This document shows positions 11,154 to 47,235 of a stretch of DNA of 64,000 bases, piece by piece. Source of the stretch: Mesonia sp. K7 (lineage in GTDB: Bacteria; Bacteroidota; Bacteroidia; Flavobacteriales; Flavobacteriaceae); assembly GCF_003233725.1 (NCBI RefSeq), contig NZ_QKQV01000014.1, forward strand, positions 1 to 64,000. Reading direction: 5' to 3'. Within the stretch, counting starts at the first letter, position 1; each line of letters begins with the position of its first letter. The notes below the pieces were generated by a model. That model saw only the letters and a program-made list of their open reading frames with translations. It ran no database searches and was not told the origin of the DNA. The translations under genes were made by a program, and so were the position numbers.

Positions 11154-12248
11154 TTATAGAATGTTAAAAGTATAAATTTCGGTGCTTTTTTCTTGAACCT
11201 CGAGTAAGAGTTTAAACTTTAGTTTATCGGCTTGTCTAAAAAAACCGTTTTGGGTTTTGATGAGAAGATCGCGATGGATGTAATTATATTCGCCTGTTGA
11301 AATCTCAAATTTTACAGGAACATATTTACTGGAATTTCCTCTTTTGTATGAAAATTCACCAGCAAAAATATTATGGGCAACTTTTACACCTAGAGGAAAT
11401 TTAAGATTGATACCCCAGATCTTTTTTCCTTCGGCTAAACTGTATTTCGCTTGTAGAATAGCATAATCTGTGGGCGAAATGATAACAAAGCCCATAAGTT
11501 TTGCTCGACTTTTCTTAGGTCGAAAACTGATTTTGTAAACTAACTCCCCTTGATATGTGTGCGTTTTATCGATTTCATATTGGTAAGCTTCTACATCAGA
11601 AATAAAATCAAAAGTTCCTGGATTTAGAATTTTATCTTTTTGCCAATGGTAACTATCCGTAACTATTTTTGTTTGATAAGAAATATCTTTTTTAGACGTT
11701 GTAGTTAGATTTCTTTCAATAGGAAATAGGCCAGATTTCACTGTTAATTTTTCATCAGTATCTACATATTTCTGTAAAATTTTTTCGAATTTATCGATGG
11801 TGTAGTCAAATTGTATTTTTCTTTTGACGTCAGAAGTAACTTGTGTTTTGATAATAGGTTTGAGGTGTGGTTTAGCGTGCTTCTTTTGATAATAACCAAA
11901 AATTGTAGTGTAACTAAAGTTATGGTTATTATTTTTTAATGAAGAAACCAAAGCTGCAATTTCATTTTCAAAATCATTTCTTTTGTCTTTCGGGATAAGT
12001 TTTGCTTTTTTAGAATCGATTTCAAAATCTTTGTATTCATAATTTTGATCGAATTTTTTATTGATTTCAAAATGGATGGTGTCTAAAAAATAATTTTCAG
12101 AGATATTTTCAGTTGCCTTACGAATAATCTCTTCCGCCGAAAGGCTTTTGTTGGAAAGAAAAACCGAATCGAGTTGTTCCCTTTTCTGTGCAAAAGAAAA
12201 GAGAACCAGTAATTGGAAAGAAAAAATTAATAGCTTTTTAATACTCAA
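11154..12248 (-). CDS. secreted protein of unknown function, paralogue of upstream gene
   Basis: This 364-residue protein has a signal peptide (SIKKLLIFSFQLLVLFSFAQ). It closely parallels the C-terminal 360 residues of the neighbouring 493-residue protein: SLSAEEIIRKATENI matches NLSPEEIMLKVNENA, and the RAKLMGFVIISPTDYAILQAKYS stretch matches its counterpart. It lacks the N-terminal carboxypeptidase-like domain. The repeated LAEGKxxxxxNLKxxLGxKV motif suggests a beta-rich fold. Start is TTG at 12248: an in-frame stop lies nine bases upstream and no ATG precedes the signal peptide. The first codons overlap the end of the upstream gene by 11 bases, so translation is probably coupled. Confidence 0.75.
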   Translation of the reverse strand: MSIKKLLIFSFQLLVLFSFAQKREQLDSVFLSNKSLSAEEIIRKATENISENYFLDTIHFEINKKFDQNYEYKDFEIDSKKAKLIPKDKRNDFENEIAALVSSLKNNNHNFSYTTIFGYYQKKHAKPHLKPIIKTQVTSDVKRKIQFDYTIDKFEKILQKYVDTDEKLTVKSGLFPIERNLTTTSKKDISYQTKIVTDSYHWQKDKILNPGTFDFISDVEAYQYEIDKTHTYQGELVYKISFRPKKSRAKLMGFVIISPTDYAILQAKYSLAEGKKIWGINLKFPLGVKVAHNIFAGEFSYKRGNSSKYVPVKFEISTGEYNYIHRDLLIKTQNGFFRQADKLKFKLLLEVQEKSTEIYTFNIL

Positions 12249-13719
12249 ACTCTTCTATTTCTTTACTCGGTGCAATAATGTTGTAACCTTCCCAAACCGA
12301 AGGGTTGTATTTTCTAATTTGCTCAACAATCACGCCTTCTTTTTCTCTAAAATTGTTGAATTGCTCCTCCGAAATTGACTCATGATTGACAAAAAGATAT
12401 TCGTTAACGGTATTATTTTCAGTTTCAACTAAAAATTCGAACTTAAACACGACTCTGTCTTTTTTATCGTCTACATTTTCTTTAAAAGTAAAGTTTCTAT
12501 TTAGATAAATGTATTGATGAGTGTCTTTTCTGATGAATAAAGGTTCGTATTTATTGTCATTATTTTTTCTAAAAAGAATCATTCCTGAATCTTTGTCTTG
12601 TATCACTTTGATACCGAGTAATAGTTTTAGGTTAAGACTATTTACGCGTTTGCCTTCGGCTAGTTGGTAATCGGCTTTTAACACCGCAAAAGTTTCTGCC
12701 GAAACATAAATTTGCCCTTTGTATTTTGCTCTTCCACGGTCAGGCTCAAAACCCATCACGTAAACCATTTCGCCGTTGTAACTCATGATTTCATCAACTT
12801 TATAGGTATAATCTTCATAATCGTTGATGAAATCTAAGCCTTGAGCTCGTAAAATATTACTTTTGCTACTCAAGCCTCTTGTTTTGCTGCTAGACCTCCA
12901 ATCTTTGGTTGTTGCGCTATCAATTTTTTCGTCTTTAAACTCAACCGCATCACCCACTTTTAGCGAATCTTCTATAGGAATAATACCCGTTTTGACTTTA
13001 AAAGTGCTTTTGGTATCAAGATTTTCGGCAATAAGTTTCATCACTTTTGCGGTCAGTTTTTCGCTATCGACACTGGCTTCTGGGTCTCCTAATTCGGTAG
13101 CTTTGATGATATTAACCTTAACGGAGTCTTTATTTTTATAGACTTCATAATAGTTTTCAGCATAATTATGGGCTTTCCTATTTTTGGTTTTCTGGAATAG
13201 TTTTTCGATTTCGTCATTAAATTTTTTCCGTGTTTTTTTTTCTAAAAAACTCGCTTTCTTAATTCCAAATTCTGTTTTGAGCATGAGAGGATTATCAGAC
13301 TCTCTTTCAAAAATGCTGTATTTACCTAAATTTGTTTGATAATTGACATCTGCATTTTCATTAACTTTTAGCATGATCTCTTCAGGAGAAAGATTTTTAT
13401 TCACCAAAAAAACTTCGTCTAATTCGTTGATGTTCTCCGAAAGGTAAATGCTAGAGCCTTCTTTAAAATCTTTGATAGCAATACTTTTGGAGGTAAAACC
13501 CATGCTTGAAAATAGCAATGAATCGGTAGGTTTGAAGTTTTCTACTTCTATCTGAAAATTTCCTTCCAGGTTGGTAATCACACCATAATCTTTCCCGATT
13601 TGTACGGCCGCAAACGGAATGGTTTCTTGTGTTTCTTTAGAAATAAGTGTACCTGAAAGTTGTTGGGCAACGATTATTTTAGTAAATAATAAAAAACTAA
13701 GAAGCGTAATATTTTTCAT
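12238..13719 (-). CDS. secreted protein with N-terminal carboxypeptidase-like regulatory domain
   Basis: This 493-residue protein has a signal peptide (about 1-18), then a CarboxypepD_reg-like beta-sandwich (about 20-95; LSGTLISKETQETIPFAAV, ITNLEGNFQI), then a long region shared with the downstream paralogue. This arrangement is common in Bacteroidetes cell-envelope proteins with no defined activity; the regulatory-like domain may bind a partner or stabilise folding. The two genes form an overlapping pair. I see no catalytic motif. Function is unknown; a role in the envelope or on the surface is the most that can be said. Confidence 0.75.
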   Translation of the reverse strand: MKNITLLSFLLFTKIIVAQQLSGTLISKETQETIPFAAVQIGKDYGVITNLEGNFQIEVENFKPTDSLLFSSMGFTSKSIAIKDFKEGSSIYLSENINELDEVFLVNKNLSPEEIMLKVNENADVNYQTNLGKYSIFERESDNPLMLKTEFGIKKASFLEKKTRKKFNDEIEKLFQKTKNRKAHNYAENYYEVYKNKDSVKVNIIKATELGDPEASVDSEKLTAKVMKLIAENLDTKSTFKVKTGIIPIEDSLKVGDAVEFKDEKIDSATTKDWRSSSKTRGLSSKSNILRAQGLDFINDYEDYTYKVDEIMSYNGEMVYVMGFEPDRGRAKYKGQIYVSAETFAVLKADYQLAEGKRVNSLNLKLLLGIKVIQDKDSGMILFRKNNDNKYEPLFIRKDTHQYIYLNRNFTFKENVDDKKDRVVFKFEFLVETENNTVNEYLFVNHESISEEQFNNFREKEGVIVEQIRKYNPSVWEGYNIIAPSKEIEEFEY

Positions 13720-17865: not shown

Positions 17866-20800
17866 TTATTTCTCGACAGACAAACGAGAACCTTTGGTTT
17901 GTACCTTATATTCTGGAGCATACATATTTTGTAGCGTTGTTATTCCATTAGAAAAATCACCGAGATTGTTTACCAAGAGATCGTATTCAAAAACATAAGT
18001 CCCTTTTTTTATGTGGTCAAAAAAGAAGTGGGTTGCCACGTCTTTGGTACTTTGATAGTAGCCTAAACCATCTTGCCATTTATAAGTAGAAAGTACATCT
18101 ACAGGTTCTAAGCTGGCAGCTCTCATATCTTTTAAGTGCATAAAACTAAAATCTTCTTTTGCAGAAATAATGAGCCTTACCGTAATCACATCGCCAAGTT
18201 GTAGTTTTGTTTTTTCTAATAAAACCAGTTTAGATTCTTCGTTGGTTTCTTCTTTTTTGAAGTATTGTTTTTGTATCGAGAGCGTTTCTTGATTATTGGC
18301 TTTTACTGCATCAGATTCTTCAAAATATTGCCAGTACATTCCTCCGTATTGAGGATAATCGTTTTTATTTTCAATTTCGATGATTGCTTTTTCTGAGCTT
18401 ATTTCTTCTTTAGCATAAGCAACTTTTAGATAACCTGTTTTGGCAATTTTCGTTTCATTTTCCAGTTTTTTATCACCTATTTTTATTTTGGTAGTTGGCT
18501 CGTCGAGATATGATTTTTCACCTTGCAGTAATAAAGCATAAATTGCTTCGGTAGTAGATTTGGTAGAATCCCAAGCATTGATTTTTTTGTTTCTCAACAA
18601 CCAGGTTTTTAAGCTTGTTACCGTTTTTTCATCTTTATCTATTTGGTGAAATGCCTCAATCGCTTTCACTTGTGTGGAAATAGAATGGTCAAACCAACCA
18701 CGATTTTCGGTAACTTCTTTCCAATACATTCCGTAATCAGAATTGATGACCGCATTTTCTTTTAGGGAAATTAAAATCTTACGAGCAAAATCTTTTTTAT
18801 CATAACGATTGGCGATGAGTGCTAAGGTAAGTTGTTGGTCTATCGAAAGCGTTACCCATTTATTCTTTAAACTTTCTAAAATAAATTCTGTATAGTTTTG
18901 AAAGTTATTTTCGGACTCAAATAAACCTCTAGCATATAAATAAGGAAGTGTATGATAGGATAAAACGTCACCTTCATCAGGCATTTCAGAAGGGATAAAT
19001 ATTTTGTCTAGATATTTAATCAAGTCTTCTATGATTTCTTGAAAATGCTCACTTTCTCTAAGCGAATTGTCGATTTGTTGTAATCTTCCTAAGCCTTGTA
19101 AAATATAAATCGAAATATTGCGGTTTTCTCTTCCCCCCGAAAACCAAGTAAATGCACCTGAAGATAATTGCATTTGTTTCAGTTGAAGTAAAGTGTTTCT
19201 TGTTCTTTTTTCAGATTCTTCTAGACTTAATAATTGTGCTAATCTTTTTTGCTGCTTTTCTTTACTTTCTGCCGATTTTAACCAAGGTGTTTCTTCTAAA
19301 GCGATGTTTTTTAATTCTTCATTTTTATATAAATCTGATAGTTGTATCTTCTCATCTTTCCAATTTTCAAGTGTTTCTTTGATTTCCGGATTGTTTTTTA
19401 CCATCAAACCAGCCAAATGATTACTATAAAATCTAGCAAAAGTCTGTTCTGAGCATTCATGCGGAAATTCGATAAGGTAGGGAAGCGATTGCAGAGCCGC
19501 CCAAACTGGGTTGGAAGTAAACTCAAAAATAAGTTGGTGATTTTCTAAACTTGTTGAGTTATTATTTTTTAAATTTTCGAAAGTGAATGTTTTTTCTTCC
19601 TGTGGATTTACCCAAACTGGCAAAGTTTCGGTCACAAAAATACGATTGTTCAACACTGGAATAATACTTTCTTCACCGTCAGAAAATTTATCCGCTTTAG
19701 CGACAATTCTGTAACGAACAGCAGAAAGATTTTCTGGGATGTTTAGCATCCAACTCACTTCGCTATTTCCTTTTGCGGCTATCGAAAAGTTTTTGATGGG
19801 ATTGGTATCGGTCACCAATTGAACTTTCTCTTGTGTAATCTCGTCGGTAAACTCTAATTGAATGATTCCGTTAAGGGTGTTTTTAGACAAATTGTTGACT
19901 TTGGCAGAAATTACAATTTTGTCTTTACTTCTAAAAAACCTTGGGAAATTAGGAATAATGTTAAGGTCTTTTTGTGTGACGGTTTCTAAATCTATTTTGG
20001 CTTGGTAAAGATTTTTGTCGTGAGCAAAAGCCTGAAATTTCCACCTCGTTAAGGCTTCTGGGCTGGTAAACTCAAAGCTCACTTCTCCTTTTTCATTAGT
20101 CCGTAACTGTGGAAAAAAGAAAGCCGTTTCTTGTAAATTTGTACGGGTTTGTACTTGGGCGAGTTCTTCTTCTGCAACATTTTTTGTGGTGATGACAACA
20201 ACACCATTTGCTGCTCGACTACCATACAATGAGGTTGTAGCAGCATCTTTGAGTATAGAAATATTCTGAATATCATGGACGTTGATGTTTGCCATATTTT
20301 CTACAATTACTCCATCAATAACATACAGAGGTGAGCTACTTTTATTTATTGAACCTACTCCTCTAATTTTCACATAGGCTGTTTGACCAGGTTGTCCGTT
20401 TGCAGCAGTAATGTATACACCAGCAGCTTTACCCTGAAGTAATTTGTCTACTGAAGTAGTAGGAGACATTTCTGTTAATTCTTCTCCTGTAACTACTGAT
20501 ACGGCAGAGGTTAACTTGTCTCTTTCGGTTGTACCGTAAGCCGTAACAACTACCTCATCAAGTTCATTTCCTGCATCTAATAAAATATTGTACTCCCCTT
20601 GTGAAGTAATCTTAGCTTCTTTAGTTTCAAAGCCAACATAACTAAAAACCAACTCGCTTCCTTTATCGGCTTTTAATATAAAATAACCATCAAAATCGGT
20701 TTGTACTCCAATTGTAGTTCCTTTTACGATAATGTCAACACCTGGCAAAGGTATACCTTGATCGTCTGTAACAACTCCAGAAACATAACCTTTTGGTGTA

Positions 20801-23800
20801 TTCTTGTTTTTTGGGATTAACTTTTCAATATAATTTTTATTCTCTTGAATTGCACTGGTAAAATCATATCCGAAATTTAAAAATTCTGTAAACGAATAAT
20901 TTTTTTCAGAATACCAATATCGATAAGGGTTTTTTTCATGAAAGTGCGTGGTTCTATCATTTTTCTGTGAAAAACTAGGGAGGTAAGAACTGTAATAATT
21001 ATACGAATTATCTCTGTATAATTTTTCGTTCCAATTATGGGTTCTAAATTCGTCTAACGAAGCATCATACATACTTACCAATACTTCTGCACTTACGGGC
21101 TGGTTGTTTTTGTCTAAAAGTTGTAATTGCCAAGTTTCGTCCTTTCTGGGTTCTAATTTATTACTAAAATGAAGCACATGAAAATTGAATGCTCTAAAGT
21201 TATCTTTACTTTGCTTGTTTTGTGTTTTAATTGTTCGTTTTTCGGAATTGAAGTGTAGATTTTTATGGTATATAAATTCTAATTCTACTAACTCAATTCC
21301 TTTAGGAACTTTAACAAAGTGCTTATTTTCTCCTTTTTTAAGAATAATTGATTCTTGTTTTTGTAGTTTTTGATCAAAAGCAACATTTAATAAAACAGCT
21401 AAAGAATCTATAGGTGTATATAAGTTGAGTTCAACATTATTGCTACTTTTATTATGAGCTTCTTTTATTGTTAAGAAATTAAGGTCTCTGAGCTGATAAT
21501 CGTCTTTAGGGTTAGTGATTTTTATGTTTTTTTCACTTTCTATAGGAAAGCCTAATTTGCCTTTTCCTTCAAATACAAATTTGTAATCGCCTGAAGTTAA
21601 AATATCGTTGTATGTATATAGTTCTACCTTTGCAATAGAATCAATATTTACAGGAATAGTTTTGATAAGTTCTTCTTTCCAGTTTTCTTTTTCATCGTTT
21701 TTGTCATAAGGTGTATTAGGAAAAAGACTAACAAACTTTTCTTTTGGTATTTGCTGAATTTCTGGGGCATTCCAATCTCGATTTGCAAGAATTCTAGTTG
21801 GAGTTTTTTGTCTAAAAATTTTAATTTCGCCTTGAGCTTTACTTTTAAGGTTGTTTAAATCTGTAGCAGAAATAATAAATTTTGATTCTTTTTCTAAGGT
21901 GATTTCTGTGGGAGTAAAAATACTTACTTCTGTTGCATTGTATCCTATCCTATATGTTTTGCTTGTAGAACGTGTTTCACCATTAATATCGGTAACGTTT
22001 ACAGTTACTTCATAATTGAAAATGGGTTTGAATGTTTTTGTTACTAAGCTATCAGGATGAGCGATGAAGTTGACCGTAAACTTACCTTTATCACCTGTTT
22101 TTGTCTCACCAGAGAGAATTCTTTTTGATGGTATGTAAATGTAAGAAGAACTTCTGTTGTACTCGTAATTATGATTGAAGCTACGATCTATGGTATAGGT
22201 AACTTTTGCATGAGAAATATCTCCGCCAAAAAAAGCTTTGGCATTTCCGTCAACTTTTATTTTTTGATTGAGTACATAACTTGAATCTAAAGCTTTGAGA
22301 GCAACTTCAAATTTAGGTCTTTTGTATTCTTCTACTTTTATGCGAACTTCTTTACTATCATAATCAATATCATCTATCGTCAAGTTGTCGATGATTTCGC
22401 TTTCAGTCTCATCATAATAATCTTCATCTATCTCTACTTCTATATCTATATCTCCTGTAACAATAGAAGAGGGTAATTTAAATTTTCCATCAACAGAGCC
22501 AAAATCATTAGTAGCTATTTTTAGAGAGTCTATCAAATCATAATGTTCATCATATAGGCTGATTAGTAATTTTAACCTTGGTACAACTTTTCTGATTTTA
22601 TTGTTTTGGAATCCAGCAATAGCTTTAAAATAAACTTCTTGACCAGGTCTATAAATACTTCTGTCAGTAAAAATATTAAAACTGATTTCTGGATAATCAT
22701 CATTACTATAATTATATTTTTTATTAAACCTAACACTTGTTTTTAAAGTGTCTCCTAAATAAGTAAGTAAGATTTTTTCTGTATAATATTCGTTTCTTCC
22801 TTTTAATGTTTGTAACCCATTTCTGTCTGTGACTGCTAACTTCTGATTGTTTCTTATAATTTTTACATCAGAAATAGGAACTCCAGCTTTTCTGTGAGTG
22901 ACATATAATTGTTGATCGTTATCAAAATCAAACGTAGTAAGGTTAAGATTAGAAACTTGTACAGGAAAAAATTTATAGAATGATCTTTCAAAATCTAAAT
23001 TTCGTTCATTACTAAAGCATAAAATATAATTTCCGGTAGGTAAACTGGGTATTAGAACTTCGGTATAATAATTATAATGATTTTCAATTTTAGGTAATGC
23101 TAAAGAAGACCTTAAAAATATTTTAGCAGTTTTATGAAGTTTCTTTAAAACAGAGTCAATTTCTGTACTACTATTTGTAGGTGTTTTAGAAGCTATTTTA
23201 TAGACAGTGAGATGTAATGTATCTGTGTTTTTAAAATTAACTAATGCCAAGTTTTCTTGGTTAGCAAATAAGATTTCTTTGGTTTTTATACTTAGGTTTG
23301 GACTTAAAATAGCATTTTTGATTTTTACTGCCTCGTTTTTTGTGTTGATGTTTTCAGATTCAATTATAATTTTATTGCAGTAATCAATACTTTTTAAATG
23401 AAAATCTAAATTTTCATTTTTATTAGCATTTGAATAATAAAACTGAGCAAATTTGAGGTTGATGAGTGCAACATCCTCTTTATCAGCAAAGTATTTGTTT
23501 AAGTTTTTTAGCGCGTTTAAGTATAAACTATCTTTATTTTTAACATCTTGTTTGTTTTTTAAATAATCAAGTCTGTTTAGTGTAACCCATAAAACTGAAG
23601 TTAAATCATTTTTTTGAAGATGTAGTTTTGTAAGGTTTTGATATTCTCTCAAAATCTCCAAATTAGAGTAGTATGTTTTTGAAGTTTCAAAATTTATTTG
23701 AGAAAACTCTGTAGGGTTAGAAAAGTATAAATGAGGTTCTAAATCAAGTTTAGTTTTTGAAAAATAGTAATAAGAGCTCTTTAGGAACTCAATTTTTCTG

Positions 23801-24378
23801 TCGGCCAATATATCATATAATGAGCTTTGGTATTTATTGTAATTGTCGCCATATTTTAAAATAGGAGTGTACTGTGTGAGAGGTACTTTTATAAGTTGTT
23901 CTTTTTTTGAAAGAGATAAGTTATAGTAATTAATAATTCTCTCTTTAAAATCATCTTCAGACCAACTTTCAAATTGGTTTGATGGGCTGTCGGTTTGAGT
24001 TCTCCTTCTTATTTTATAGCTATTTTGGTTGTAATAATCTTTTAAACTTTCGGCCAGAAAAGAACTTAAAATCTGTTTGTTAGGAGTGATTTGTTGTTCA
24101 ATTTCCTTTACAAAATCTTCATAAACTTCTTGATGACTGTTGTCTTTTAAAATCAACTTATATTTGGAAACATATAAAAATGCTTTTAAAAACTGTTGAC
24201 TATTTTCTTTTCTATCGGCTTTTTTTAAAATCTTTTGAGCAGCTTCGTAAGCCGACATAGGTTTGCCTTCCAATTCAAGATTTTCTACCTCTGTCCACCA
24301 TTTGTCAAATTTTTTTTGCCCGAAACTAAAACTAATTGTAAAAAGAAATACGAATAGAAAAAGGTGATTTTTAAGCAT
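17866..24378 (-). CDS. alpha-2-macroglobulin family protein with inserted CarboxypepD_reg and SusC-like TonB plug domains
   Basis: This 2170-residue exported protein has a signal peptide (1-20). An alpha-helical N-terminal part follows, then macroglobulin-type beta domains including an MG2-like segment (NIFTDRSIYRPGQEVYFKA). At about 1197-1270 there is a carboxypeptidase-regulatory domain (GVVTDDQGIPLPGVDII), at 1274 a TonB-box-like DEVVVTAYGT, and up to about 1400 a complete SusC-type plug (LQGKAAGV, PLYVIDGVI, AANGVVVITTK). No beta-barrel follows. The A2M domain resumes (FFFPQLRTNEKGEVSFEF), then the thioester motif Cys1642-Ser-Glu-Gln1645 (HECSEQT) and the thioester helical domain. Bacterial A2Ms trap proteases covalently in the periplasm; what the plug adds is unknown. 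No penicillin-binding protein gene lies beside it, unlike E. coli yfhM-pbpC. Confidence 0.9.
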   Translation of the reverse strand: MLKNHLFLFVFLFTISFSFGQKKFDKWWTEVENLELEGKPMSAYEAAQKILKKADRKENSQQFLKAFLYVSKYKLILKDNSHQEVYEDFVKEIEQQITPNKQILSSFLAESLKDYYNQNSYKIRRRTQTDSPSNQFESWSEDDFKERIINYYNLSLSKKEQLIKVPLTQYTPILKYGDNYNKYQSSLYDILADRKIEFLKSSYYYFSKTKLDLEPHLYFSNPTEFSQINFETSKTYYSNLEILREYQNLTKLHLQKNDLTSVLWVTLNRLDYLKNKQDVKNKDSLYLNALKNLNKYFADKEDVALINLKFAQFYYSNANKNENLDFHLKSIDYCNKIIIESENINTKNEAVKIKNAILSPNLSIKTKEILFANQENLALVNFKNTDTLHLTVYKIASKTPTNSSTEIDSVLKKLHKTAKIFLRSSLALPKIENHYNYYTEVLIPSLPTGNYILCFSNERNLDFERSFYKFFPVQVSNLNLTTFDFDNDQQLYVTHRKAGVPISDVKIIRNNQKLAVTDRNGLQTLKGRNEYYTEKILLTYLGDTLKTSVRFNKKYNYSNDDYPEISFNIFTDRSIYRPGQEVYFKAIAGFQNNKIRKVVPRLKLLISLYDEHYDLIDSLKIATNDFGSVDGKFKLPSSIVTGDIDIEVEIDEDYYDETESEIIDNLTIDDIDYDSKEVRIKVEEYKRPKFEVALKALDSSYVLNQKIKVDGNAKAFFGGDISHAKVTYTIDRSFNHNYEYNRSSSYIYIPSKRILSGETKTGDKGKFTVNFIAHPDSLVTKTFKPIFNYEVTVNVTDINGETRSTSKTYRIGYNATEVSIFTPTEITLEKESKFIISATDLNNLKSKAQGEIKIFRQKTPTRILANRDWNAPEIQQIPKEKFVSLFPNTPYDKNDEKENWKEELIKTIPVNIDSIAKVELYTYNDILTSGDYKFVFEGKGKLGFPIESEKNIKITNPKDDYQLRDLNFLTIKEAHNKSSNNVELNLYTPIDSLAVLLNVAFDQKLQKQESIILKKGENKHFVKVPKGIELVELEFIYHKNLHFNSEKRTIKTQNKQSKDNFRAFNFHVLHFSNKLEPRKDETWQLQLLDKNNQPVSAEVLVSMYDASLDEFRTHNWNEKLYRDNSYNYYSSYLPSFSQKNDRTTHFHEKNPYRYWYSEKNYSFTEFLNFGYDFTSAIQENKNYIEKLIPKNKNTPKGYVSGVVTDDQGIPLPGVDIIVKGTTIGVQTDFDGYFILKADKGSELVFSYVGFETKEAKITSQGEYNILLDAGNELDEVVVTAYGTTERDKLTSAVSVVTGEELTEMSPTTSVDKLLQGKAAGVYITAANGQPGQTAYVKIRGVGSINKSSSPLYVIDGVIVENMANINVHDIQNISILKDAATTSLYGSRAANGVVVITTKNVAEEELAQVQTRTNLQETAFFFPQLRTNEKGEVSFEFTSPEALTRWKFQAFAHDKNLYQAKIDLETVTQKDLNIIPNFPRFFRSKDKIVISAKVNNLSKNTLNGIIQLEFTDEITQEKVQLVTDTNPIKNFSIAAKGNSEVSWMLNIPENLSAVRYRIVAKADKFSDGEESIIPVLNNRIFVTETLPVWVNPQEEKTFTFENLKNNNSTSLENHQLIFEFTSNPVWAALQSLPYLIEFPHECSEQTFARFYSNHLAGLMVKNNPEIKETLENWKDEKIQLSDLYKNEELKNIALEETPWLKSAESKEKQQKRLAQLLSLEESEKRTRNTLLQLKQMQLSSGAFTWFSGGRENRNISIYILQGLGRLQQIDNSLRESEHFQEIIEDLIKYLDKIFIPSEMPDEGDVLSYHTLPYLYARGLFESENNFQNYTEFILESLKNKWVTLSIDQQLTLALIANRYDKKDFARKILISLKENAVINSDYGMYWKEVTENRGWFDHSISTQVKAIEAFHQIDKDEKTVTSLKTWLLRNKKINAWDSTKSTTEAIYALLLQGEKSYLDEPTTKIKIGDKKLENETKIAKTGYLKVAYAKEEISSEKAIIEIENKNDYPQYGGMYWQYFEESDAVKANNQETLSIQKQYFKKEETNEESKLVLLEKTKLQLGDVITVRLIISAKEDFSFMHLKDMRAASLEPVDVLSTYKWQDGLGYYQSTKDVATHFFFDHIKKGTYVFEYDLLVNNLGDFSNGITTLQNMYAPEYKVQTKGSRLSVEK

Positions 24379-31708: not shown

Positions 31709-32443
31709 ATGCGATTAAAAATAGACATACCAGAACCTTGTAGTGAATCTTGGCAAAAGATGACACCAAATCAAGACGGAAGGTTTTGTGACAGTTGCCA
31801 AAAAACGGTAGTCGATTTTACAAAATTTTCTGATAGAGAATTACTTCATTACATCAAAGGGAAAGACCAGCTTTGTGGTCGTTTTTACCAAAACCAACTC
31901 AAAGAATACCAGGCGAATACGAGTGCTTTTCAACTTTCATCACGCTGGAGTTTTGCTTTAAGTCTGTTTACTTTTTTAGGAATTTCTTCACCGATTTTTG
32001 CTCAAACCTCAAACCCAAAAACCGAACAAACCGATAACAAATCTTGGAAAAGTGTTTTACCCCAAAAGAAATCACTTCAAGATTCAATCACCTTTACTGG
32101 GACTGTTACGGATGATCAAGCGATGCCTTTACCTGGTGTGAATGTTGTTTTAAAAGGAACGACCATTGGCACTCAAACCGATTTTGATGGTAATTTTAGT
32201 TTGAAGGTTTCAAAAAAAGATGTACCTGAGAAAATTGACCTGTTCTTTTCTTATGTTGGTTTTGATACTCAAGAAAAAAGAATTAAGAATAAAAATGAAA
32301 ATATAAATATATCTTTAGAACAAGGTCCTGCATTAGGAGGAGTTGTTGTTTATAGCTATAAAAAACAAAATATCTTCCGACGCACAGGCAATTTCTTTAA
32401 AAGACTTTTTACCAAGAAAGAAAAAGAAACCTGCGAACAGTAA
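31709..32443 (+). CDS. membrane protein with N-terminal Cys cluster and CarboxypepD_reg-like domain
   Basis: This 244-residue protein has an N-terminal segment with Cys11, Cys27, Cys30 (CDSC) and Cys56, a pattern that could hold zinc, in the cytoplasm. A single hydrophobic helix follows (WSFALSLFTFLGISSPIFA, about 80-98), then an exported carboxypeptidase-regulatory domain (FTGTVTDDQAMPLPGVNVV, 130-200) like that before SusC plugs. The C-terminus is basic and ends in KKEKETCEQ. No plug or barrel follows. This looks like a flavobacterial family with a tethered SusC-type module; function unknown. Confidence 0.7.
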   Translation: MRLKIDIPEPCSESWQKMTPNQDGRFCDSCQKTVVDFTKFSDRELLHYIKGKDQLCGRFYQNQLKEYQANTSAFQLSSRWSFALSLFTFLGISSPIFAQTSNPKTEQTDNKSWKSVLPQKKSLQDSITFTGTVTDDQAMPLPGVNVVLKGTTIGTQTDFDGNFSLKVSKKDVPEKIDLFFSYVGFDTQEKRIKNKNENINISLEQGPALGGVVVYSYKKQNIFRRTGNFFKRLFTKKEKETCEQ

Positions 32444-44136: not shown

Positions 44137-47100
44137 TTATTGTTTGATAATTTTTTGTGTAAATTCTTTTCCGTTGGAAGTTACTTTGAGAATGTATACA
44201 CCTGTAGGAAGTGCAGATAAATTATTAATAGTAACATCTTGATGCACATTTTTGTATGTTTTTTGATAAACTTGTTGACCAAGTATATTTACTATTTTCA
44301 CACTTGTGTCACCATTGATGTTGGCATCAGTAATATGTAAAATATCTCCGTGAACTGGGTTAGGGTAAACATTTAGCGAAGCCACTTCGCTGTTGATAGC
44401 ACCTAAAGGTTTTCCGAACAGGAGTTTAAATCTATCGGTAGCTATACTCTCTGTAATGTTTTCATCTACCGTAAAGTTATACGTATTTACACCTTCTTGT
44501 AAAAGTGTTTGCGTTTGTAAATAACTATCAACAAGATAAGCTTCGTTGTCTAGCGCAGGTAAATCGATAGAAAAATGATAATCGGTATTTCTGTAGTTGT
44601 TATTAAAAAACGGAATTTCTTCATCTTCTACAGGTAAAGCTCTTCTTTCGATACTTAAAAATTTATTTCCGTTAACTAGGGCTAAATTCTCATCTTGGTT
44701 TCCTAGTTTTTCAGCATCACTCTCATCGACTTGATTGCCATAATTTGTATCAAAATAAATTTTAGCTCCATCAACTAAAAATGGACTGCTGTTTAGCGTA
44801 GAGAATAACTTGATATTCATCTCTTTCGCTATCATGGGTTTATGCGTAGCCGTGAGATTTCCACTAACTTTTTGTAATTGGTGAAACTCCAAGCTTGGTG
44901 AAGCACCAGTTGTTCTTGCAAAAAAGGCTTGGTTAGGTTGCAAATATTCATTTGCTGCTGAAGAACCAACGCCACCTTGAACGGTATTTGAACCCGTAGT
45001 GACATCTACCACAACATAAGCACCTCTGGTGTTGACATTAGGATCCCAAATGTAATAATAGGTGGTGTTTAAATCGGTGCTGTAGCTAGAAAGAACCAAG
45101 TTCATATCAATAGCAGATTGGTAAGGGTTTCCGATAAGGTTGTAATCCCCTGTAGTAGAACTCAAACTATTCACATCGATCTGTTGTGCGTCTGCAATCG
45201 TTCCAGTCATTCTCAGGCGGGTGTCGTCTGCCGTAGCGGTATTGTTGGATAAATCTATCGCACGACTTCCTCTTACAAAAAGGCGGTAAGGTTTTCCTCT
45301 TTCTAAGGTGAGTACATCTGTGTTAGCAACAGCTGCCCAAGTCTGACTGCTATTTTCAAAATCAAATAAAGATGGGTTACCGGAAATGGTGGCGTCAAAA
45401 CCATTGCTACCATCGGTAGAACCGGTAATGTGCGTTCCAAAACCTGTGTTGTTGTTGATGTTATCTCCAGGAAAAGCGGTACCTGTATTATTTTGTCCTT
45501 CTTGCCAGTTAGCTCTAATTGTTCCTGTTGTGGTTACGGGACTTGATAAAAATCGAAAAGCTCTTTTACCAGGGATAAAGCGTTGTATTTCAAAAGTGAT
45601 ATTAGAACTTATTGTTGATGTAGATAACATCTCTCCCAAAGTCGCGGTGTCGTTAATCGATGTACTTTCCATTACTATCGTGCCATCTCCTATAATATCA
45701 CCAATCACATTTAGTTCTCCTAGAATGGTCAAAGTATTTCCAGTAGTAACAGTTAAGTTATAAGCCTCAAGGTTAGTAACAGTTAAATTATCTTCTATAG
45801 AAACCATATCATTTTGTGTAGGTGTTCCTGCAGGAGACCAAGCGCCAGCACTATACACATAGTCAATACGCGTATCGTCGGTACCCGGTGTCATATCAGC
45901 TACGTCGGCACTGGTAATTGTCCATTCAGAAGCTGTCCATGTATTATTAGGATTTGTAGCTAGATTATTTCTTACTGCTCTACTATTTTCATATTCCCAA
46001 ACTTCACCAGTACCATCTGTACCTATTTCACCATAAATGTCTGACACTGTACCTCCAGAACTAAAATTACCATTGTAATACAAAACATAAGTATCATCTC
46101 CATTACTATTTGCAACACCACTTAAAGCATCGGGAGTAAAAGAATATGCATTTTCAAATTGAGGATCACCAATCACATAAAACGTACCAGGCTTTAAAAC
46201 ACCGCTTAATTGCTGTTCTGTAGTTGGGCTAGTATTATTATTAGAGAATAATGATAAATAAATATTAGAAAGGTCGATATATTCACTACCATTATTATAA
46301 ATCTCGATAAATCTTCCTTCACTAGCATTATCACCTGGATCTGCCACTTCAGAAATGATTATATCTGGAACAGGAGGAAAATCATTGTCTTCTAAACTTA
46401 TATTCAGTTGGTTGGAAACTCCAGCAGCAGCGTTATTTCCTCCAGCTACATTCTGTATCTCAAAAGTTAAATTCTCTGTACCTTCAATAGAAGCATCATC
46501 GGTAATCGTTAAGGTAACTGTTTGATTGGCTGACGATCCCGCAGGAAAAGTTACGGTTTGTGTCGTATAATTGTTGATGTCTGTGGCATCGCCACTTATC
46601 AGAACAATATCTGCAGTAGTAGCATTTGTAGCGTCTTCGTTCATTATCGTTAAATCAATGTTATAAGTACCATCACCTTCGTTTATGGTAGTGCTAGTGG
46701 TGGCAAAGTTTACTTCTGTATCTGTGGAGGGTGAACCGAAAGCGGTAGCAGAAAAGTCATCAATTATCAAATGTCCAGATTGATTATCATTTACAATTCT
46801 AATGTATAGAGAGTTACCACTGTTATTCATAGAGAATGTAAATTCTTGAAATGTTGTTCCGGCAAATACTTGTGATGTAATTGTTGTAAAAGTACTACTA
46901 TCGGTTGATATTTGCACATCAAATGTTCCACCCCCAGAATTTAATTCTCGATACCAAAATGATATATCTCCAACACCATTTGTAAGTTGGGGAGTTGTAA
47001 GAGACGCATCAGAAGTATCATCATTTAATCTTGCAGCATGACCTACACCACCTCTAGAATTTCCACCACTTTCTTGAAACACGTCAGCAGTTTGCCAAAC

Positions 47101-47235
47101 TCCTGAACTTAGTGTTTGATTTCCTGTAGTATATGTAGCTGCTAAACCAGAGTCGAAATTTTCTGTAATCTGTCCATTACTTTTTAAAGTAATAAAGCTT
47201 AGCATTAAAGCTAAAAAGAGTAATTTATTTTTCAT
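44137..47235 (-). CDS. large secreted protein with Calx-beta, lamin-tail and T9SS type A sorting domains
   Basis: This 1032-residue protein has a signal peptide (about 1-22). Next come a jelly-roll-like domain (FDSGLAATYTTGNQ, YRELNSGGGTFDVQIS), a Calx-beta-like repeat (about 173-285; TTINEGDGTYNIDLTI), and a lamin-tail domain (about 290-420; IISEVADPGDNASEGRFIEI). A long beta-rich region follows, and finally a T9SS type A tail (about 955-1032; NVYPNPVHGD, LPTGVYILKVTSNGKEFTQK) for export and surface attachment. It is likely an adhesin or surface glycan- or nucleic-acid-associated protein; no enzyme motif is visible. It is paired with the PID-CTERM gene downstream. Confidence 0.88.
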   Translation of the reverse strand: MKNKLLFLALMLSFITLKSNGQITENFDSGLAATYTTGNQTLSSGVWQTADVFQESGGNSRGGVGHAARLNDDTSDASLTTPQLTNGVGDISFWYRELNSGGGTFDVQISTDSSTFTTITSQVFAGTTFQEFTFSMNNSGNSLYIRIVNDNQSGHLIIDDFSATAFGSPSTDTEVNFATTSTTINEGDGTYNIDLTIMNEDATNATTADIVLISGDATDINNYTTQTVTFPAGSSANQTVTLTITDDASIEGTENLTFEIQNVAGGNNAAAGVSNQLNISLEDNDFPPVPDIIISEVADPGDNASEGRFIEIYNNGSEYIDLSNIYLSLFSNNNTSPTTEQQLSGVLKPGTFYVIGDPQFENAYSFTPDALSGVANSNGDDTYVLYYNGNFSSGGTVSDIYGEIGTDGTGEVWEYENSRAVRNNLATNPNNTWTASEWTITSADVADMTPGTDDTRIDYVYSAGAWSPAGTPTQNDMVSIEDNLTVTNLEAYNLTVTTGNTLTILGELNVIGDIIGDGTIVMESTSINDTATLGEMLSTSTISSNITFEIQRFIPGKRAFRFLSSPVTTTGTIRANWQEGQNNTGTAFPGDNINNNTGFGTHITGSTDGSNGFDATISGNPSLFDFENSSQTWAAVANTDVLTLERGKPYRLFVRGSRAIDLSNNTATADDTRLRMTGTIADAQQIDVNSLSSTTGDYNLIGNPYQSAIDMNLVLSSYSTDLNTTYYYIWDPNVNTRGAYVVVDVTTGSNTVQGGVGSSAANEYLQPNQAFFARTTGASPSLEFHQLQKVSGNLTATHKPMIAKEMNIKLFSTLNSSPFLVDGAKIYFDTNYGNQVDESDAEKLGNQDENLALVNGNKFLSIERRALPVEDEEIPFFNNNYRNTDYHFSIDLPALDNEAYLVDSYLQTQTLLQEGVNTYNFTVDENITESIATDRFKLLFGKPLGAINSEVASLNVYPNPVHGDILHITDANINGDTSVKIVNILGQQVYQKTYKNVHQDVTINNLSALPTGVYILKVTSNGKEFTQKIIKQ

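Follow-up and report, generated by a model that had tools for sequence, protein, structure and literature searches.

The 64,000-nt window analysed here, positions 1 to 64,000 of contig NZ_QKQV01000014.1 from Mesonia sp. K7, carries a gene for an alpha-2-macroglobulin (A2M) in which the periplasmic parts of a SusC-type TonB-dependent transporter (TBDT) occupy the bait region. The gene (17866-24378, minus strand, as are all of its features given below) is a single uninterrupted open reading frame (ORF) of 2170 aa with an ATG start and zero internal stops. Pfam models identified an MG2 domain (residues 569-657; 22408-22674), a CarbopepD_reg_2 domain (1199-1278; 20545-20784; also found by NCBIfam) that represents the N-terminal extension (NTE) of SusC, a Plug domain (1288-1393; 20200-20517; 6.1e-18), an A2M domain (1418-1507; 19858-20127; 2.2e-15) and a bMG10 domain (2033-2156; 17911-18282), with MG2, A2M and bMG10 exceeding their curated cut-offs. 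The Ton box region DEVVVTAYGT (1274-1283; 20530-20559) was recognised in the translation and in the match to solved SusC chains, and the thioester motif CSEQ lies at 1642-1645 (19444-19455). Positions 3-220 of the 981 in the NCBIfam SusC model TIGR04056 aligned to residues 1199-1416 (1.5e-79), under the whole-protein cut-off, as expected when only part of a model is covered; TIGR04057, a signature of SusC/RagA, scored above its own cut-off. The best solved-chain matches by sequence were likewise SusC/RagA proteins (top E 1.9e-36, residues 1199-1404). No beta-barrel follows the insert: TIGR04056 stops at position 220 and the A2M domain comes next. The Pfam, NCBIfam and solved-chain matches thus bear out the first-pass annotation, made from the letters alone, which had described a SusC-type NTE, Ton box and plug without a barrel inside a thioester protein. 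Residues ~1-20 (24319-24378) read as a signal-peptide-like segment, and no lipobox was seen by eye at the N terminus, so the protein is probably soluble, in the periplasm or beyond.

The bait region, delimited by anchors, model and profile (residues ~1110-1408; 20155-21051), comprises a low-confidence linker and then the SusC-derived insert. It is flanked by two conserved stretches: YDASLD (1104-1109; 21052-21069), the end of a conserved host MG segment taken here as the N-terminal bait border, and the TRTNL opening of the A2M part. In a profile of 30 homologues, residue 1426 paired with residue 976 of E. coli A2M, which lies just past the E. coli bait segment (~923-963; PMC4498604), and the same profile matched human A2M from chain position 725 (6tav) onward. 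An AlphaFold model of residues 979-2170 (mean pLDDT 75, pTM 0.59) had its best solved fold matches among E. coli and Salmonella A2M structures (Z about 21, 13-15% identity), spanning model residues 84-1192 for 4u4j, 4ziq, 4u48 and 5a42 and 492-1192 for 4ziu, and therefore extending on both sides of the insert; the root-mean-square deviations of 12.6-18.5 leave the packing of domains in the model unsure. The window protein is a type I bacterial A2M, and its insert lies at the bait position of animal macroglobulins, the place that had been suggested from the letters alone.

Low pLDDT marked the linker (model residues 136-215) and the Ton box (292-315), and the NTE was well predicted both in this model and in one of the insert alone, the plug less so. 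Since the plug prediction in the insert-alone model was unsure (block means 28-71, shallow alignment), nothing was drawn from that part. The insert is complete and close to SusC, which invites the view that it folds as a plug and either blocks a plug-less SusC barrel or serves as an ordinary transporter part. With no barrel, a plug part modelled alone at low confidence, and relatives that have lost or reordered core pieces, such a role is very improbable.

The gene is the sole A2M match in its genome, which has 19 further Plug places; all eight ORFs scanned among these contain a beta-barrel, and three of the other 11 places match the SusC model almost full length. One SusC of the same genome (G000:C1:8893-11865; G and L handles denote genomes and loci) is 74% identical to the insert over 201 aa, compared with 33-49% by BLAST for the inserts of other Mesonia A2Ms (35-56% over the aligned parts in a second comparison). 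The C-terminal parts of nine other Mesonia A2Ms are 53-64% identical to the window protein. A gene-conversion-like tract of 152 nt over the Ton box and plug start (20416-20568; residues ~1271-1321) showed 91% DNA identity to the own SusC as against 65% outside it, a result reached in 0 of 2000 codon permutations. Amino-acid-identical codons were identical in 34 of 46 cases inside the tract and in 41 of 103 outside (p=1.7e-4). No such synonymous excess was found between two SusC orthologues (22/37 vs 64/122) or between the insert and the SusC of G009 (23/37 vs 46/92). As the G009 SusC has the stretch and much of it is missing from the G009 A2M, it is simpler to assume that SusC was the donor and A2M the recipient. 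A second conversion-like tract (117 nt at 86%, 7 of 2000 permutations) was found in G146, whose insert is 64% identical to the own SusC and at most 54% to any other match listed from ten genomes. Re-capture was also considered for G003 (62% to the own SusC, 57.5% to a sister insert) and not counted, because the sister insert is nearer by bit score and no tract was found (800/2000). Ten other Mesonia genomes have the A2M gene, and in nine of them a SusC gene lies ~19-23 kb from it; for G007 no SusC was listed on the A2M contig.

Homologues were collected with the C-terminal part (residues 1405-2170) as query. At E <= 0.001 this query detected the gene in 28 of 60 relatives; with the cut-off set to E <= 1e-30, 132 of 249 genomes from the family and 61 of 296 from the phylum had it; 33 A2M loci came from named genomes. 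After 14 of the 237 matching ORFs were dropped for want of an anchor (leaving 223) and 13 duplicates were removed, 210 non-redundant baits remained, five with non-standard anchors. Bait length ranged from 106 to 337 with a median of 141.5, one anchor error omitted. Baits of >175 aa were classed as long (n=77, two of which, L204 and L117, begin too early and are overlong by error) and the other 133 as short. Independent assemblies, from Mesonia and from other Flavobacteriaceae, contain full-length ORFs of equal architecture, which rules out the assembly chimera that had been named as a possible source of this frame. A CxEQ motif is present in 186 of the 210 homologues. It is absent in five rows of the order-level family code f5 (L024, L217, L218, L219, L224), four of which keep a visible Ton-box scrap in the bait; type II A2Ms, which are without a thioester, are described as able to trap a protease (PMC5764988). 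By a crude pattern, 124 of 137 full-length relatives are without a lipobox, 8 have one and 5 are unclear.

A complete plug end (YGxxAANG-like) is a minority state, found in 36 of 210 homologues. Relatives without the full insert are thus the rule, an outcome that the first-pass annotation had listed as a threat to its idea, and many of them have a shorter version of the mimicry. The insertion of an entire plug, true of the window protein, is too narrow a description of its relatives, many of which hold partial, compressed or permuted scraps at the same place; the folded plug is therefore not what is conserved. As far as the sequences go, the window insert is the well-preserved end of a continuum.

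Against an NTE/plug profile built from 31 SusC proteins, 76 of the 77 long baits scored above 5 bits (the exception being L117, an anchor error) and 69 above 60 bits. Short baits exceeded 5 bits in 59 of 133 cases, a threshold passed by 0.04% of 2660 shuffled sequences and by 2.9% of 1539 segments taken from elsewhere in these proteins. Three peptides recurred in the short baits: an EVV-type Ton-box peptide in 50 (shuffle mean 2.74), L.G[KRQ].[AS]G ('L.GK.AG') in 20 (0.01) and RG.S in 21 (0.05). Where at least two motif types were present (22 short baits), their order was permuted in 19 and SusC-like in 3. An independent scan with 18,950 NCBIfam models also placed SusC at the top for short baits, with 22 of 133 at E <= 0.1 and 2 for the next family. 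Two Saprospiraceae baits (L049, L050) exceeded the Pfam Plug cut-off. With slightly wider patterns applied to all 210 baits, 56 had both motif kinds, 51 the Ton box only, 32 the plug only and 71 neither. Baits rich in Ala, Pro, Met and Gly and devoid of motifs were seen in L052, L053 and L059 (Ozemobacter/Riflebacteria) and L056 (unassigned), all outside Bacteroidota or not assigned to it.

The imitation is nearly restricted to the periplasmic parts of the transporter. Matches above 5 bits to the full-length SusC model fell on the NTE, Ton box or plug in 42 of 43 cases for short baits and 83 of 83 for long ones; the sole barrel match of the 126 was in a short bait (L141, 6.4 bits). In a control, 60-aa windows of held-out SusC barrels with 0, 30 and 50% of residues substituted were detected at rates of 0.93, 0.59 and 0.21, and plug windows treated alike at 1.0, 0.94 and 0.44; barrel windows were more than half as detectable as plug windows in five of six settings tried. 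The absence of barrel pieces is therefore not merely a matter of low sensitivity.

This restriction bears on a rival account in which the bait tolerates anything unfolded and in frame, so that ectopic recombination with the many TBDT genes deposits decaying fragments and the mimicry has no selected function. Recombination-like tracts do exist, SusC lies 13-35 kb from the A2M gene in the 14 genomes compared (picked because a same-contig SusC was listed), and baits evolve fast: the ratio of nonsynonymous to synonymous substitution rates (dN/dS) lay at 0.12-0.70 for the bait and 0.02-0.18 for the C-terminal part, over the 45 closest among 1860 pairs (with three values for the bait not computable). 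Human A2M, moreover, is described as functional with a Gly-Ser bait (PMC8267569). Such filler would nevertheless have to yield 1 barrel match in 126 from a model of which the barrel is about three quarters, short specific peptides that persist in permuted order across families, and, in a genome lacking SusC, the genome's own other TBDT type; bait dN/dS is also below 1 where computable. A filter that excludes barrel pieces because of their folding could account for some of these points, and we hold undirected filling to be unlikely, if well short of negligible.

A different use for the same peptides would be docking of TonB: through an exposed Ton box and NTE the macroglobulin might be bound by TonB and so be positioned beneath the outer membrane beside the transporters, or might even be pulled on and primed by TonB. 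Among the scraps, Ton-box-like peptides are the commonest (107 of 210 baits by a loose pattern), the Ton box lies in a low-confidence and presumably exposed stretch of the model, the NTE is predicted well, and PMC12204202 cites work implicating the NTE in the TBDT-TonB interaction. An NTE followed by a compressed Ton-box/plug-like stretch also stands at the N terminus of a vWF_A/VWA protein of genome G566 (L356:1117-2433, plus strand), with no barrel in the part read. On the other side, the plug-core peptides 'L.GK.AG' and 'RG.S', which lie outside the Ton box, are enriched over shuffles more than the Ton-box pattern, 32 of 210 baits carry plug motifs without a Ton-box match, and the profile matches of short baits seldom reach the NTE. 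We consider docking improbable as the main explanation.

Baits were also compared with the transporters of their hosts, using 77 of 80 genomes, the 80 being part of about 125. Of the 70 genomes with a strong SusC match (E <= 1e-80), 40 had a bait above 5 bits, as opposed to 1 of the 7 that lacked such a match (p=0.046), a weak test with few genomes, phylogeny not controlled and nine candidates scored per genome. The exception is L184 of G408, whose bait contains EVIVVSERPLIEKSSTNTTRIVSSDEIQPLP and then VRGGRVDEVGYIVEG. This bait resembles two ORFs of its own genome (L359, L364) in the same order, with 22-30 residues missing. The full frames of both look-alikes have an NTE and Plug; L387 has an outer-membrane barrel domain, and L386 has sequence matches to solved TonB-dependent receptors and no barrel model match. 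A further look-alike of the L184 bait comes from G415, in the form of an ORF (L357, partial sequence) that has an NTE and a Plug. By sequence, then, the bait of one SusC-less genome resembles another TBDT family of that genome.

The gliding-motility lipoprotein GldJ was matched by two of the 133 short baits (best 1.1e-9; L119 of G071, 2.2e-4), and is possibly another self protein imitated in the bait.

The bait is hypervariable among the 210 homologues, and its turnover appears rapid, with some inheritance. L032 and L033 are 95.7% identical in their C-terminal parts and 70% in their baits, L033 being without an NTE; L084 and L097 (C-terminal 88.9%) have short scraps versus a long NTE bait, and L018 and L137 (87.4%) a full plug versus scraps. 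Paralogues within one genome differ likewise: bait scores were 208 and -2 bits in G214 and 230 bits and no match in G216, for neighbouring genes in both, and 75 and 5 bits on different contigs in G372. Three adjoining A2M genes with differing baits were also noted at G071:C1:488163-509386. On a FastTree tree of the 210 rows, label changes numbered 60 for full/scrap/none (shuffled mean 99), 22 for the complete plug end (33) and 55 for the EVV motif (70). Simple decay of one ancient insertion is unlikely to be the whole story, given the permuted order in 19 of 22 baits and the tracts that two inserts share with their own SusC; that the permuted order is partly inherited, and so not independent, weakens this case.

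We propose that the bait mimics the plugs of the cell's own TBDTs and is a self-decoy for the proteases that attack them. A protease reaching the periplasm would attack exposed transporter plugs and Ton boxes and would also cut the look-alike bait; the macroglobulin would then close and its thioester couple to the protease, as in other A2Ms. SusC plugs are plausible victims, because they can leave the barrel and were found proteolysed in one apo preparation (PMC7782687). Human A2M stays functional when Gly-Ser takes the place of its entire bait, and the protease that cuts the bait depends on the substrate sequence inserted there (PMC8267569). Recombination between it and transporter genes of the same genome would keep the look-alike up to date, and otherwise it would drift into short, reordered peptides, since on this proposal cleavage sites count and not a folded plug. 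TBDT peptides in varying order, nearly all periplasmic, together with recent exchange with the own SusC in two genomes, are as expected if a trap imitates the target of proteases. The bait position, the mimicry, its restriction to periplasmic parts, the permuted order, the tracts in two genomes and the one match to another TBDT are all read from sequence; cleavage, trapping and attack on transporters as the selecting force are inferred. Of the ideas in the first-pass annotation, that of the plug as bait or decoy is the one best supported by the homologue survey, through the mimicry, with the decoy function itself still conjectural, and we put the self-decoy at about an even chance of being correct.

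Several observations weigh against it. TBDT mimicry in the baits is common and not universal: 71 of 210 have neither pattern, some of them nevertheless resembling TBDT pieces in score or appearance, and the Pfam Plug model detects just 3 of 133 short baits. Because the homologues are related, the counts lack independence; much of the permuted order seems to reflect a single arrangement common within Flavobacteriaceae, and the Ton pattern behind the order count is loose, as in L131. The SusC-presence test is weak, as given above. The tract region is conserved among SusCs, the window insert being 83% identical to the G009 SusC there, and protein constraint therefore contributes to the tract identity, the synonymous test being the stronger evidence. 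Of the ten Mesonia inserts compared, just the one in the window genome has the own SusC as its best match, and the rest are closest to inserts of other A2Ms or, in G007, to another genome's SusC; the G206 insert is likewise nearest to another A2M insert (60%; own SusC 52%). A bait role also does not explain the NTE and Ton-box/plug-like stretch in the unrelated protein L356.

A wider claim, more tentative and somewhat less probable than the self-decoy itself, is that Bacteroidota macroglobulins are natural integrated self-decoys. On this view the bait copies periplasmic parts of the cell's transporters and keeps evolving: gene conversion would renew it, paralogues would come to carry different versions, and the driving force would be an arms race against proteases directed at the uptake machinery of the outer membrane. 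The copied protein would be SusC where present, another TBDT family in one SusC-less genome and, in a few cases, perhaps GldJ. If the bait does copy its target, it also reveals what that target is, namely the plugs of TBDTs, which are major gates for nutrients in Bacteroidota. The target and the attacking proteases could then both be searched for directly, and bacteria would have their own counterpart of decoy-based immunity, with gene conversion renewing its specificity.

Some further features were noted. A peptide like 'KALVFNSRTEQSGGxITxEITKKE' recurs directly before the A2M domain in the baits of L100, L083, L101, L084 and L143. The window has two further ORFs with a CarboxypepD_reg-like domain (31709-32443, plus strand; 12238-13719, minus strand). 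An ORF at 44137-47235 (minus strand; 1032 aa) has lamin-tail and Calx-beta domains and a type IX secretion tail; it lies ~20 kb from the A2M gene, a distance at which nine other Mesonia genomes have a SusC gene.

In a literature search, no paper was recognised as describing a macroglobulin with a transporter plug, judged mostly from the openings of abstracts and with many journals outside the coverage. The closest known proteins are the bacterial type I A2Ms of E. coli (ECAM/YfhM) and Salmonella (SaA2M), which share with the window protein the MG-domain fold, the bait position, the thioester CxEQ and bMG10. Unlike them, the window protein has a bait of ~300 residues with a SusC NTE, Ton box and plug. 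E. coli A2M is an inner-membrane lipoprotein encoded beside pbpC, whereas the window protein has no lipobox by eye and no PbpC-like gene was found among the neighbours scanned (including adenylate kinase, Obg, DUF4136, Mur ligase and RadC); the lipoprotein and pbpC context is a property of the E. coli members and not of the fold. With the SusC/RagA transporters Bt1763 and RagA it has the NTE, Ton box and plug in common (the Ton box of Bt1763 is DEVVVTG; PMC7782687), but here these parts have no beta-barrel and lie inside a protease trap. Human A2M with engineered baits (PMC8267569) likewise has a replaceable bait that sets specificity, the bait here being natural and apparently taken from the cell's own transporter. 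A looser parallel, by analogy only, may be drawn with a system in which a copy of a self protein is likewise built into a defence protein, there a signalling receptor and here a protease trap. Integrated decoys of plant NLRs are of this kind, immune proteins that carry a copy of a self protein targeted by attackers.

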